A stretch of DNA of 64,000 nucleotides from the NCBI GenBank assembly GCA_017541465.1, contig JAFXYZ010000009.1, positions 1 through 64,000 on the forward strand, in the 5' to 3' direction. The position numbers and the translations under genes were made by a program. The notes below the pieces were generated by a model. It made no database searches and was not told the DNA's origin. It saw nothing but the letters and a program-made list of their open reading frames with translations. Positions 189 through 63,847 of the stretch are shown piece by piece. The number at the start of each line of letters is the position of its first letter. Position 1 is the first letter of the stretch. Source of the DNA: a bacterium (GTDB taxonomy: Bacteria; Cyanobacteriota; Vampirovibrionia; Gastranaerophilales; Gastranaerophilaceae).

Positions 189-945
189 ATGTTTAATTTC
201 AAAAATAAACTTGTTCCTACCCCCCCCCTACTTCTTTTGGAAAAGAAGTAGGCAAGAAAACTTTCATAGTTTGCCAAGTTCTATCTGGAACTTATTAAAT
301 CAATGTTTTGGTAAAGAAAAAGCTTTTACCCTCGCCGAGGTCTTAATTACTCTCGTTATCATCGGAGTTATTGCAGCAATAACCATTCCAAGCCTGATCA
401 ACAAAACAAATAATCAGGAAACTGTTTCAAGATTAAAAAAAGCATATTCTTCACTTTCTCAAGCAACAAACCTTATAATTCTAGAAGAAGGACCCGTAAC
501 TTCTTGGGCGACTTCACTTGATAATATTTATAATTTATATATGAAAAAATTAATTAATACAAAAAAATGTAATAGAGAAATAGGTTGCTTTGAACAAGGG
601 ACAATTCATTGGTTAAGTTCACGTACGGAAGATTTTAATTCATCAACCTGGAGAAAATTTGTATTACAAGATGGAAGTCAAATATTAATTGCACCGCAAC
701 TGAGCCAAAATTGTACATTGGATAATGAAGTTAATGATGGTTCGAAAAATCATTGTGCACGAATAGTTGTAGATATAAATGGGGCAAAGAAACCTAATAC
801 TTTCGGACGTGATATTTTTATGTTTGTACTAAAAAAAGATGGTCTTTATCCTGCAGGTTGTGATTATGATAATCAATGTAACAATAATAGTTGTGGTTCA
901 GCTTGCACATGCAAAGTTCTTCGAGAGGGTGCTATGAATTACTAA
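189..945 (+). CDS. Type IV prepilin-like protein, locus 1, poly-C tract out of frame
   Basis: Secreted pilin/pseudopilin-like protein. The body has a class III prepilin signal (KAFTLAEV) followed by one hydrophobic helix (ITLVIIGVIAAIT), a variable globular region, and a Cys-rich C-terminus ending CKVLREGAMNY shared with the loci at 18.4 and 63.1 kb. The expected start is ATG 189 (GAGAGG ribosome site), encoding MFNFKNKLVPTPP up to a run of nine C (220-228). With nine C this frame reaches a stop at 249. With eight C it runs straight into the pilin frame, which is open from TTG 211 to 945. The frame after the C run translates a palindromic repeat (227-265) as leader. TTG 211 could initiate weakly but has no ribosome site. 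Prepilin fold is sure; ligand and assembly system are unknown. Confidence 0.8.
227..265 (+). repeat. Palindromic repeat A inside prepilin leader
   Basis: A 26-bp near-perfect palindrome (CCTACTTCTTTT-GG-AAAAGAAGTAGG) plus a ggcaagaaaactttc arm. The same unit sits at 63120-63158 inside another prepilin leader and, inverted and diverged, at 63862-63897 outside any gene. It stays open in the pilin frame and encodes YFFWKRSRQENF. Confidence 0.8.
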
Positions 946-15233: not shown

Positions 15234-15251
15234 TATTCCTTAGTAATTGTT

Positions 15252-15287
15252 CTCCCTCCCTGGACGGGGAGGGTTGGGGTGGGGTGA
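15252..15287. repeat. Repeat family C (ctccctccctggacggggag...)
   Basis: Palindromic CTCCC-tccctgga-cGGGGAGGG followed by ttggggtggggtga. A second copy (19071-19103) lies inside the leader of the minus-strand prepilin. This one abuts the thrC stop codon. Confidence 0.75.
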
Positions 15288-17920: not shown

Positions 17921-18328
17921 ATGAATCTCACATTAGGTTCAAACACAACTTCATCATCAAATCAGGGTTATCAAATATTCTCAAGCAACGATAACTCAAA
18001 CTCCACACAAATTTTTGTTGCTCCGTCAGGAAACAATTTTGGTGGTGAGTCAGCAGGTTCTGTAGCCTTCGGTGGCGAATCAGCTGGTTCTGTTGCATTT
18101 GGTGGTGAATCGGCAGGCTCCGTTGCCTTCGGCGGAGAATCAGCAGGTTCTATCGCATTTGGCGGTGAATCAGCGGGTTCAATTGCCTTCGGTGGCGAAT
18201 CGGCAGGCTCTATCGCTGCTATGAGTAATGTATTCAGCGCAATTTCAAGCTTTGGTTCATTTGGCGGTTCATTCGGCGGTGTTTCATCAGTTTCCTCCTG
18301 CGGTTCTTGCTGCTCATTCGTTGCATAA
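17921..18328 (+). CDS. Decapeptide tandem-repeat protein (GGESAGSVAF)
   Basis: A 135-aa protein of unknown family. A Ser/Asn-rich N-terminus (residues 1-40) leads into six perfect or near-perfect decapeptides GGESAGS[VI]A[FA] (residues 41-100; DNA 18041-18220, 30-bp units). Then comes a Gly/Ser/Phe-rich segment (FGSFGGSFGGVSS) and a Cys-rich end (SSCGSCCSFVA). The units differ at many third codon positions yet encode nearly the same peptide, so the peptide is under selection. A strong AAAGGAG ribosome site supports expression. No signal peptide. It could be a structural repeat protein or a multi-core peptide precursor; no modifying enzyme is adjacent. Confidence 0.8.
   Translation: MNLTLGSNTTSSSNQGYQIFSSNDNSNSTQIFVAPSGNNFGGESAGSVAFGGESAGSVAFGGESAGSVAFGGESAGSIAFGGESAGSIAFGGESAGSIAAMSNVFSAISSFGSFGGSFGGVSSVSSCGSCCSFVA
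18041..18220 (+). repeat. Six 30-bp coding tandem repeats
   Basis: Units begin at 18041, 18071, 18101, 18131, 18161 and 18191, each encoding GGESAGS[VI]A[FA]. Substitutions between units are mostly synonymous; the only amino acid changes are V/I in three units and a final F to A. Confidence 0.95.
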
Positions 18329-18350
18329 TAACTAGGATAATAAATATAAA

Positions 18351-18380
18351 AAAAATCCCCGACAAAATCGGGGATTTTTT
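18351..18380. terminator. Bidirectional intrinsic terminator
   Basis: AAAAATCCCCGA-CAAAA-TCGGGGATTTTTT, between the tandem-repeat gene (+) and the prepilin (-). A family D palindrome follows at 18390. Confidence 0.9.
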
Positions 18381-18389
18381 ATTATTGTT

Positions 18390-18413
18390 GTCGGGCAAGA
18401 ATGCCCAAATTAC
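18390..18413. repeat. Mini-palindrome family D, copy 7
   Basis: GTCGGGCA-AGAA-TGCCCAAATTAC, 9 nt after a terminator, the same terminator-plus-palindrome arrangement as at 19757 and 20534. Confidence 0.7.
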
Positions 18414-18428
18414 GATTATTATTTGATA

Positions 18429-19192
18429 TTAATAATTTATTGCATCTTCACGTAATACTTTACAGGTACATCCTAAACCAGAGCCTGTTCCAACGGTACA
18501 ATCTTCAGTACCATCACAACCATAAGGGTATAAACCATTTTCTTTGATAACAAAGCCAAATACATCTTTTCCTAATACATTTGGTTTTCTTGCCCCATTT
18601 ACATCAAAAACTATTTCACCCCCACAACTACCATTAGTACTATATTTAGTACAACTGCAATCAGAACAATTAGTATCATAGTTTAATAATACCTGTGTTC
18701 CGTCTGATAATACAAATTTTCTAAAACCTGTAGAAGTGTTAAAATTCCATCTTTGATTATGCATTGTCATATGAGCAATGGGAAAACAACCCTGTGCCGA
18801 ACCACAATCTTTTGTAATATGCAAATAAGGTTTGTACAATTCATAGATACTATCAACACTTGTAATCCAACCACCTTTATCTGCACGTGGGGTACCTTCT
18901 TCAGCGATTATTCGATTTGTTGCCTGAGCAAAAGTAGAATATGTTTTTTTTAATTTTGCAACATATTCCTGATTATTGGTCTTATTCATTAATGTCGGAA
19001 CTGTTATTGCAGCAATTACACCGATTATGACGAGAGTAATTAAAACCTCGGCAAGGGTAAATGCATTTTTCCTCCCTGGACGGGGAGGATTAAGGTGGGG
19101 TGAATGGATTGCCTCGCAATCTAAAGATTGCTCGCAATGACAATTATTTTTGTGGGGGGGGTAGGAACTACTTTATTTTTCAAATTAAACAT
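18429..19192 (-). CDS. Type IV prepilin-like protein, locus 2, poly-C tract out of frame
   Basis: Pilin/pseudopilin with signal NAFTLAEV, hydrophobic helix ITLVIIGVIAAIT, and the shared tail GLYPYGC...CTCKVLREDAINY. The expected start is ATG 19192 (GAGAGG upstream), reading MFNLKNKVVPTPP to a run of eight C (19154-19161). With eight C it stops 24 codons in; with nine C it would read on without a stop through translated repeats B and C into the pilin body. Without the leader, the first ATG of the body frame is only at 18989, after the signal helix, so that start would give no secretable pilin. It has the same architecture as locus 1, with the opposite C-number. Confidence 0.8.
19071..19103. 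repeat. Repeat family C inside prepilin leader
   Basis: CCTCCCTGGACGGGGAGG then attaaggtggggtga. It matches the intergenic copy at 15252-15287 closely. On the minus strand it is open in the pilin frame and encodes part of the leader (HPPRPGRK-like residues) just before the KNAFTLAEV cleavage motif. Confidence 0.75.
19107..19142. repeat. Palindromic repeat B inside prepilin leader
   Basis: GATTGCCTCGCAATC-taaa-GATTGCTCGCAATGAC, an imperfect palindrome of the type dispersed between genes in many genomes. It lies between the C tract and repeat C in the prepilin leader, in an open frame. Confidence 0.7.
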
Positions 19193-19226: not shown

Positions 19227-19255
19227 ATATTATCAAATATTCCCTAATTTGTAAA
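19227..19255 (-). promoter_or_regulatory. Promoter of prepilin locus 2
   Basis: On the minus strand TTTACA (19255-19250), 17-nt spacer, TAATAT (19232-19227). Box and spacer are nearly the same as at 125-153 in locus 1. Confidence 0.7.
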
Positions 19256-19270
19256 TTTATAACATTGTTA

Positions 19271-19293
19271 TTGGGCAAGTATGCCAAACCTAC
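19271..19293. repeat. Mini-palindrome family D, copy 8
   Basis: TTGGGCA-AGTA-TGCCAAACCTAC, read on the minus strand as GTAGGTTTGGCA..., directly upstream of the prepilin locus 2 promoter. Confidence 0.65.
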
Positions 19294-19401
19294 ATTCTTT
19301 CTTGTCGATACAAGAAAGTTAGAACACATTAAAAACCAAAAATGAACCATAATTTTAAATCAATCGTTCTACAAAATGTAATCAGAAAGTGGAGGAACGA
19401 T

Positions 19402-19746: not shown

Positions 19747-19756
19747 ATCACAAAAA

Positions 19757-19806
19757 AATCCCCAAAATTTCGGGGATTTTCTCTTTAGTGTTGGGCAAGA
19801 ATGCCC
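19757..19806 (+). repeat. 50-bp terminator-palindrome module, left copy
   Basis: AATCCCC-AAAATTTC-GGGGATT terminator hairpin followed by ctctttagtg and family D palindrome TTGGGCAAGAATGCCC. It matches 20534-20583 at 49 of 50 positions in the same orientation, and the pair brackets the toxin-antitoxin operon. Confidence 0.85.
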
Positions 19807-19830
19807 GATTTAATATTTATTAAAAATAAA

Positions 19831-20136
19831 TTAAGCAGACTTTAATTGAATTTTTATTTCATACCCAAGCCCATCAAGAATTTTATTAATGGTTGCAATA
19901 GTAGGTGCTTTTGTCCTTCCGTGCAACAAATCAACAAGACTTGTTCTTTGCATTCCTATTGATTGAGCAAATTGTTTAACCGTAGTTCTTGCTTTAATTA
20001 CCTGTTCAAGAGAACGAAAAAATTCGGTATAATCGCCGTCTTGTGTAAATTCAAGCAAACTATCCTTCAAATATATTTTTTGATTTTCTTCGTTTTGCAA
20101 CCAATTATTCACAAAATCTTTATGTTTTATTGTCAT
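19831..20136 (-). CDS. HigA-like antitoxin (XRE family)
   Basis: DNA-binding antitoxin that likely neutralises the toxin encoded just upstream and represses the operon. Residues ~38-95 form a helix-turn-helix (VKQFAQSIGMQRTSLVDLLHGRTKAPTIATINKILDGLGY). The N-terminal 35 residues are charged and probably bind the toxin. It overlaps the toxin gene by 17 bp. This toxin-first order is the HigBA pattern. It lies between 50-bp direct repeats. Confidence 0.85.
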   Translation of the reverse strand: MTIKHKDFVNNWLQNEENQKIYLKDSLLEFTQDGDYTEFFRSLEQVIKARTTVKQFAQSIGMQRTSLVDLLHGRTKAPTIATINKILDGLGYEIKIQLKSA

Positions 20137-20461
20137 TTTGTTCTTTCCTTATTAAATAATCTTTTAAATATTTATCCGCTTGTTTTATTGCCCTTTTTTG
20201 GTCTGATTTATCGCCTGCCGTAACAATTAAGATAATAACCTTATCAAGTTCCTTAAAATAGATTCTGTAACCTTTTCCAAAGAATAATCGAAGTTCGCTC
20301 AGTTCACTGTTTGTTAATTTCTTACAGTCACCCAATAAACCGCTCTCAAGCCTGTTTATTCTTTTGATAACTTTTGACTGATATTCGACCGACAAAGTCG
20401 AGAACCATTCCAGATAAGGACATTTGCCATCTTTGGTAGTATAATATTCTACTTCTTTCAT
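20120..20461 (-). CDS. HigB/RelE-type toxin (phage Gp49-like family)
   Basis: Putative mRNA interferase of a type II toxin-antitoxin pair. The 113-aa sequence has the family layout: an N-terminal CPYLEWFSTLSVEYQSKVIKRI helix pair, an ELRLFFGKGYRIYF strand pair with basic and aromatic residues, and KVIILIVTAGDKSDQKRAIKQADKYL at the end, typical of the Gp49-like killer proteins. Toxin precedes antitoxin. A TTGACA-17-TACACT promoter (20470-20498) ends 8 nt before the ATG and no ribosome site is present, so the mRNA is probably leaderless or nearly so. Confidence 0.87.
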   Translation of the reverse strand: MKEVEYYTTKDGKCPYLEWFSTLSVEYQSKVIKRINRLESGLLGDCKKLTNSELSELRLFFGKGYRIYFKELDKVIILIVTAGDKSDQKRAIKQADKYLKDYLIRKEQNDNKT

Positions 20462-20498: not shown

Positions 20499-20533
20499 GA
20501 TATACAAAGATTTTATAATTTTTTCTGACAAAA

Positions 20534-20583
20534 AATCCCCGAAATTTCGGGGATTTTCTCTTTAGTGTTGGGCAAGAATGCCC
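20534..20583 (+). repeat. 50-bp terminator-palindrome module, right copy
   Basis: AATCCCC-GAAATTTC-GGGGATT terminator plus family D palindrome; one mismatch to 19757-19806. It also serves as the terminator for clpC on the minus strand. Confidence 0.85.
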
Positions 20584-20595
20584 AACTTACGTTTT

Positions 20596-49180: not shown

Positions 49181-49190
49181 TATTTTTATT

Positions 49191-49214
49191 GTAGGTTGGG
49201 CATTCTTGCCCAAC
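49191..49214 (+). repeat. Mini-palindrome family D, copy 13
   Basis: GTAGGTTGGGCA-TTCT-TGCCCAAC, the most canonical member in the window, 10 nt from copy 12. Confidence 0.75.
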
Positions 49215-49231
49215 AATATTTATTGGTTTAA

Positions 49232-63081: not shown

Positions 63082-63847
63082 ATGTTCAATTTAAAAAATA
63101 AACTCGTTCCTACCCCCCCCCTACTTCTTTTGGAAAAGAAGTAGGCAAGAAAACTTTCGTAGTTTTTCTAGTTCTATCAGAAAATTACTAAATCATTGTG
63201 ATAGTAAAAATAAAGCTTTTACACTTGCAGAAGTTTTAATAACTCTCGTTATCATCGGCGTTATTGCTGCTATAACCGTTCCGACTTTGATGAATAAAAC
63301 AAATAATCAGGAATTTGTTTCAAAACTAAAAAAGACTTATTCTACACTTGCACAGGCAACTAATTTGATTATTGCAGAAGAAGGAATACCCAGAGCAGAC
63401 AAAGGGGGTTGGTTAGACAGTAGCGAACACATGTATCAACTCTACAAAAAGCATTTGATTAATGCAAAAGAATGTGGTGCAAAAGCCGGTTGTTTTAATC
63501 AACATGGGGATAAAGGATATAAATATTTAACAGGTGGGGCTGAAAATAGTTTTAACGATCCGGTTTCTCCATATAGAAGATTAATCCTAAACGATGGAGT
63601 TCAGGTTAATTTTGAATTTCTTTCTTCCTCTTGTAGTTATAATTGGTTAGATACTGATTTGTGCGGGTTAATTCGTGTTGATTTAAACGGCGAAAAAGGA
63701 CCTAATACATACGGAAGAGATGCTTTTTCGTTTAAAGTAACTGAAAAAGGGCTCTATCCTGTTGGATGCCAAGATATTAATTATTGTCAAACCGATAATC
63801 GTACTTGTGCCTGCAAAGTTCTTCGCGAAAATGCTATGAATTATTAG
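63082..63847 (+). CDS. Type IV prepilin-like protein, locus 3, poly-C tract out of frame
   Basis: Third member of the prepilin family, with signal KAFTLAEVLITLVIIGVIAAIT, a variable body, and the tail GLYPVGC...CACKVLRENAMNY. ATG 63082 (GAGAGG upstream) reads MFNLKNKLVPTPP to a run of nine C (63113-63121), then meets a stop. With eight C it continues into the pilin frame, through the translated palindromic repeat A (63120-63158), without a stop. In the pilin frame there is no ATG, GTG or TTG before the signal, so secretable pilin requires a C-tract change or slippage. The first ATG after the signal is at 63287. Confidence 0.8.
63120..63158 (+). repeat. Palindromic repeat A inside prepilin leader, copy 2
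   Basis: Same 26-bp palindrome and actttc arm as at 227-265, in the same position relative to the C tract and pilin signal. Confidence 0.85.

Follow-up and report, generated by a model that had tools for sequence, protein, structure and literature searches.

Phase variation driven by simple sequence repeats is known mainly from pathogens, where it extends over many kinds of genes. Homopolymeric tracts located at the 5′ end of genes act as reversible off-switches, as exemplified by inlA (Orsi 2010, PMC2831843). In Neisseria, the opa genes carry CTCTT pentamers in the region encoding the leader peptide and switch frame via slipped-strand mispairing (PMC3960869), and type IV pili undergo phase variation through a homopolymer frameshift in pilC (Jonsson 1991, as cited in PMC5084427). 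The gonococcal pilE/pilS system consists of one expressed gene and a set of donor copies by which it is changed through recombination, and the seven-residue leader carries no tract (PMC4877100). At the scale of a whole genome, the phase-variable repertoire of meningococci comprises 115 genes, with length variation detected at the level of sequencing reads (PMC5084427). Both homopolymer phase variation and leader-borne switching are thus already known.

The locus described here (locus 2) is located on the minus strand of a stretch of 64,000 nucleotides from a Gastranaerophilaceae genome, hereafter the window, the features of which are collected in Table 1. The leader ATG at 19192, with a GAGAGG-type ribosome site directly upstream, reads through MFNLKNKVVPTPP into C8 and on to the stop TAG at 19123-19121, the leader frame as sequenced being MFNLKNKVVPTPPTKIIVIASNL ahead of that stop. 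From the tract onwards, the prepilin frame runs open to its stop at 18429 and reads HKNNCHCEQSLDCEAIHSPHLNPPRPGRKNA up to the cleavage point and FTLAEVLITLVIIGVIAAIT...INY beyond it; HKNNCHCEQSLDCEAIHSPHLNPPRPGRKNA followed by FTLAEVLITLVIIGVIAAITVPTLM... matches the cleavage site of a type IV prepilin and the N terminus of a pilin. The two frames are offset by one base at the tract, and a change in tract length shifts the reading frame of a surface (pilin-like) protein. Because ATG, GTG and TTG are all absent from the pilin frame between the tract and the core, the pilin of locus 2 has no start codon as sequenced. The spacer is composed of dispersed palindromic repeat modules, ATTGCGAGC..AGATTGCGAGGCAATC and CACCCCACCTTAATCCTCCCCGTCCAGGGAGG, the second of which recurs at 15250-15287, and it ends in ..KNA at the prepilin peptidase site.

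Table 1. Features of locus 2, of the two other tract-bearing prepilin genes and of the palindromic repeats (window coordinates)
Feature	Position	Strand	Remark
Prepilin gene 2 (leader, C tract, spacer, pilin)	18429..19192	minus	out of frame by one base as sequenced
Leader start, from ATG 19192-19190 to the A preceding the C run, MFNLKNKVVP-T	19162..19192	minus	
Eight-cytosine tract, proposed switch	19154..19161	minus	
TAG terminating the leader frame in the OFF state	19121..19123	minus	codon 24 of the leader frame, by codon count
Spacer, 92 bases	19062..19153	minus	no stops in pilin frame
Mature pilin, 210 aa, FTLAEVLITLVIIGVIAAIT.., type IV pilin N terminus	18432..19061	minus	TIGR02532 above cut-off; AlphaFold2
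Intrinsic-terminator-like hairpin, 3′ of gene 2	18350..18380	minus	
Promoter-like site 5′ of the leader ATG	19227..19255	minus	weak; not above chance for the region
Prepilin gene 1	189..945	plus	one base over, OFF; C9 at 220-228
Nine-cytosine tract, gene 1	220..228	plus	
Prepilin gene 3	63082..63847	plus	one base over, OFF; C9 at 63113-63121
Nine-cytosine tract, gene 3	63113..63121	plus	
Palindromic repeats	1014-1038, 15243-15287, 18353-18412, 19268-19300, 19753-19812, 20530-20589, 49187-49217		

Two small elements flank the locus. A short ORF at 17921-18328 (plus strand) contains six FGGESAGS(V/I)A repeats in 30-nt units (repeats 18038-18240) and a cysteine-rich end, SCGSCCSFVA; it has no Pfam match and could encode a precursor peptide or a surface repeat protein. 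Beside the prepilin gene, a pair of adjacent short ORFs at 19831-20461 (minus strand), one of which weakly matches the Gp49/HigB-like family (PF05973), is a possible toxin-antitoxin pair. Also encoded nearby is a homoserine dehydrogenase, which gave only distant matches when named genomes were scanned with it. No cyanobacterial 16S signature was found, and the GyrB is of the long type with an insert.

The original prediction described the ATG at 19192 as reading into eight C with the prepilin frame one C away, and both coordinates and counts proved exact. It likewise held that loci 1 and 3, at C9, are each one C too long and locus 2 one too short, which is what we find. Its further claim that locus 2 needs nine C is true, but this need is not an oddity. 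In all three loci, a Thr codon begins with the A that precedes the run and is followed by CCC CCC; the codon after these is TAC in loci 1 and 3 but CAC in locus 2. It is this CAC that raises the requirement of locus 2 to nine C: replacing T by C at the edge of the tract adds a C to the run and leaves the register unchanged, and the three loci therefore share one register. A different ON length as a peculiarity of locus 2 is ruled out by this codon difference.

The protein carries the hallmark of prepilins, i.e., a leader ending in G or A, then F-T-L-x-E and a hydrophobic stretch. The locus 2 pilin scores 22.3 bits against TIGR02532 (cut-off 16.3) and 19.6 bits against PF07963, just below the cut-off of 21.2, and sequence matches to the PDB, pilins and GspG cover the N-terminal helix only. 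The AlphaFold2 model (pLDDT 93.5) consists of a 53-residue N-terminal helix (residues 3-55) and a compact mixed globular head; Foldseek against the PDB returned no solved fold at E <= 0.001, and the head domain does not correspond to that of a solved pilin fold. Conservation of the pilin is near complete in residues 1-24, low in the variable middle of the protein and high again near the C terminus, where the motif ..CKVLRE.AMNY is found. A prepilin peptidase is encoded in the genome (PF01478 above cut-off, at G000:C61). Among the A1 members of the own-genome pilins, 5 of 39 match DUF6613 (PF20318), and these A1 pilins have a confidently predicted fold with no solved counterpart. Defence libraries searched with the prepilin gave no match.

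Using the locus 2 pilin as a query retrieved 87 matching stretches in its own genome; in the sequence of these selected stretches, 74 distinct prepilin cores were counted, and 61 of these 74 prepilins carry a C7-C10 tract in the leader. The enrichment of tracts at this site is well over chance: the whole genome (2.12 Mb) contains 68 runs of C8 or longer, compared with about 5.6 expected from base composition, and 62 of them precede a prepilin core on its own strand at a distance of at most 260 nt. Two of the remaining six runs lie at contig ends; counting runs that follow an A along with these gives three. Within the window, no C or G run of at least seven occurs outside the three prepilin tracts; eight-G matches number 5, against 0.34 expected in shuffles.

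The reading frames of the 61 tract genes fall into 26 ON and 35 OFF, the latter comprising 21 that are one base over and 14 that are one short, in a comparison of paralogs within one genome and not of one locus across strains. The three frame offsets (26, 21, 14) are compatible with equal thirds (p=0.17). The distance from tract to core is 0 or 2 mod 3 in 61/61 genes and never 1 (chance 2e-11), so that eight or nine is the ON length in every case; 60 of the 61 tracts lie within one base of it. Two genes with equal spacer length and leaders that are 86% identical are found in opposite states, L009 (C8) being OFF and L039 (C9) ON. Because tract length tends to follow spacer type (12-nt spacers are mostly C8 and ON, the others mostly OFF; p=0.06), tract lengths cannot be regarded as freely randomised.

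In 40 of the 61 genes, 84-198 nt of dispersed palindromic repeats separate the tract from the cleavage site; in the rest, this spacer comprises about four or five codons, with one gene having eight. The same repeats also lie between genes within the window (e.g. GTTGGGCAAGAATGCCCAAC and CCTCCCTGGACGGGGAGG), and they build the prepilin spacers in frame, in which they recall the palindromic elements that occur within Rickettsia genes. Such insertions presumably do no harm, since the leader is removed. The resulting leaders, predicted at about 45-100 residues in these 40 genes, would be of unusual length for prepilins; their processing is putative. Moreover, 14 tract genes (nine ON and five OFF) have an in-frame start and a ribosome-site-like motif between tract and core, in some cases directly before the core (..GGAGAGGGAACATGTTTGCT followed by TTT), and their expression may be partly independent of the tract, which would then be bypassed. 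A repeat module ending in ..GGAGAGGGAACATG or ..GTG supplies a ribosome site and a start directly before the pilin core; loci with a start-supplying module are L023, L028, L032, L003, L031, L051, L056 and L098. A start codon 3′ of the tract is absent both in locus 2 and in 25 of the 35 OFF genes.

Related genomes carry tracts at the same site. C runs of at least seven shortly upstream of a pilin core are found in 17 of 191 genomes and 7 of 41 genera of the same family, with zero in the reversed control of this search. A broader search for eight C/G bases identified 71 of the 286 genomes of the order, all in Gastranaerophilaceae, a count in which some non-homopolymeric stretches of mixed GC are included. 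The leader sequences around the tracts are unrelated between genera. In genome G154, a C or G tract is present in 69 of the 89 prepilins retrieved, mostly of ten bases, nearly all one short and none credibly ON, some genes being unassignable in the automated leader assignment. At this leader site, about 50 of its prepilins have poly-G in place of poly-C (e.g. L210, L213, L289), and the G and C tracts share the length of ten. G118 and G171 resemble G154 in having near-constant ten-base tracts that are nearly always one short, and the tracts of G214 are almost always ten and nearly always one base short. G140 has G11 tracts with an offset (+1) opposite to that of genus g7 (-1), and G277 has C9/G9 tracts. 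The tracts of G060 are C10-C13 and mostly OFF, and several contigs of this genome end inside or beside tracts. In genus g38, tracts are mostly C9 and one short, with two ON. In loci L171 and L191 of G121, C runs of 52-53 lie at the ends of contigs, and the tract was probably misassembled there.

It appears likely from the sequence that locus 2 belongs to a large prepilin family in which the length of the leader C tract determines, separately for each gene, whether it is expressed. Slipped-strand mispairing during replication would add or remove one C. When the leader is in frame, the full prepilin would be made and cut by the prepilin peptidase between G/A and F, with the tract-encoded leader being discarded; when it is out of frame, only a short peptide would be produced. 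Because the tract lies in this discarded leader, it would be tolerated in coding sequence without a change of product, and the mature pilin would be identical for every ON length. With 61 tracts varying independently, the cells of one clone would come to carry differing pilin combinations. The model presumes that tract length changes in living cells and that ON genes are assembled into pili, the benefit of which would be surface diversification. Slipped-strand switching is the best fit to the mixed states and the intact OFF genes of the own genome.

Several other accounts of the OFF copies have to be weighed. With 35 genes out of frame, these copies might be decaying pseudogenes. However, none of the 35 has a stop in its mature part, and in all 24 OFF genes with a spacer of at least 60 nt, the pilin frame contains 0 stops, compared with 130 and 41 in the other two frames (171 in total). 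Constraint is equal in both states, pN/pS (raw proportions) being 0.53 for OFF/OFF pairs and 0.57 for ON/ON pairs, with dN/dS of about 0.2-0.4 among the most similar pairs. Damage was found in three copies only, L031, L036 and L098, and the tract is in frame in each of them. As a general account, decay is refuted by the stop counts and the constraint, and its probability is minimal; decay with other stop codons, named beforehand as the outcome that would count against the original prediction, was looked for and not found. The view that the loci represent independent OFF states, one of two offered in the original prediction, is well supported by the three offsets in 61 genes together with the stop-free, equally constrained OFF frames. 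Homopolymer errors of sequencing or assembly, with all genes really in frame, could be suspected in a draft genome of 74 contigs, the more so as several contigs of relatives end in or beside tracts and two G121 tracts are implausibly long at contig ends. Yet the offsets occur in both directions at similar rates, A/T runs of 7-8 sit in intact long frames of the window, and the same tract site is found in many independent genomes; such errors are highly improbable as the explanation, and miscalling in one direction, already dismissed in the original prediction, is excluded by the mixed offsets. It is also very unlikely that the OFF copies serve as silent donors for gene conversion into expressed pilins, as pilS does for pilE in Neisseria. 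Their conserved leader, N terminus and C-terminal motif around a variable middle would suit recombination, and leaders are more alike than mature parts, but OFF copies keep a start codon, a complete leader and often a ribosome site, as well as a tract within one base of ON, none of which a donor needs, and 26 copies are ON simultaneously.

A further alternative, reading by slippage having been the second view offered in the original prediction, is that the tracts are slippery sites, at which RNA polymerase or ribosome slippage would yield some product at any length, so that OFF genes would be expressed at a low level and not silent. The ten-base tracts of G154, G118, G171 and G214, nearly always one short whether made of C or G, and the constraint on OFF genes speak for slippage. 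In the own genome, however, the three offsets occur in comparable numbers, and members do not share one offset, as would be expected of a programmed frameshift (26/21/14), although G154 is nearly uniform at -1. The fixed offset also differs by lineage, with -1 in genus g7 and +1 in G140, and this lack of uniformity speaks against one programmed shift, which should prefer one direction. Slippage is an unlikely account of the family, which keeps some probability because some relatives have nearly constant, out-of-frame tracts. Such tracts are not predicted by simple random switching: their modal length could be set by mutation bias and be usually OFF, or product could be made via transcriptional or translational slippage. 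It is conceivable, if rather doubtful, that in this bacterial family the pilin frame is deliberately placed one base off behind a C/G tract of fixed, genome-typical length (ten in G154), prepilins being made only upon RNA polymerase or ribosome slippage or upon a length change. If so, the pilin repertoire would be near-silent by default and sampled randomly and in parallel by dozens of leader homopolymers. The fixed out-of-frame tracts of some relatives thus raise a testable question of slippage-based expression.

Under switching by tract length, clonal populations would diversify their pilins combinatorially. Nearly all long C tracts of the genome serve one family of surface-fibre subunits, amounting to about 60 switches at one site, and C/G tracts recur at this site in other genera behind unrelated leaders. 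One practical consequence would be that many functional pilin genes are labelled as broken, or given misplaced starts, by automated annotation. The literature searched, which was partial, holds no earlier description of some 60 prepilin leaders that take up nearly all long C tracts of a genome, with tracts recurring at that site across genera; nor did it yield a paper linking phase variation with either of two candidate taxa, a negative of little weight.

The number of opa copies is far below 61. The predicted architecture is that of a contingency locus, with the tract in a part that is absent from the mature protein, as in Neisseria opa (PMC3960869). Both systems consist of a paralogous surface-protein family in which each copy has its own leader-coding repeat outside the mature protein. 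They differ in the repeat, of one base here and a pentamer in opa, and in the product, prepilins here and outer-membrane barrels with a Sec signal there; the CTCTT pentamers and outer-membrane barrel of the opa type are replaced by a mononucleotide tract and a pilin architecture. As in pilC, to go by the citation of Jonsson 1991, type IV pili would be switched by a homopolymer frameshift, but pilC encodes an assembly or tip protein and comprises few genes, whereas here the genes encode pilin subunits and number in the dozens. Like pilE/pilS, the family offers many pilin variants built on a constant N terminus, yet 61 of its genes have a leader tract and 26 copies are ON. The position near the gene start, with early truncation when out of frame, is that of inlA; there, A and T tracts are distributed over many kinds of genes, whereas the tracts here are C/G and belong nearly all to one family. 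Finally, the proposed simple-repeat switches are of genome scale, as in the meningococcal set, but that set covers many kinds of genes and repeats, with variation seen at read level, whereas here one family would be switched at one site, as read from assembled sequence.
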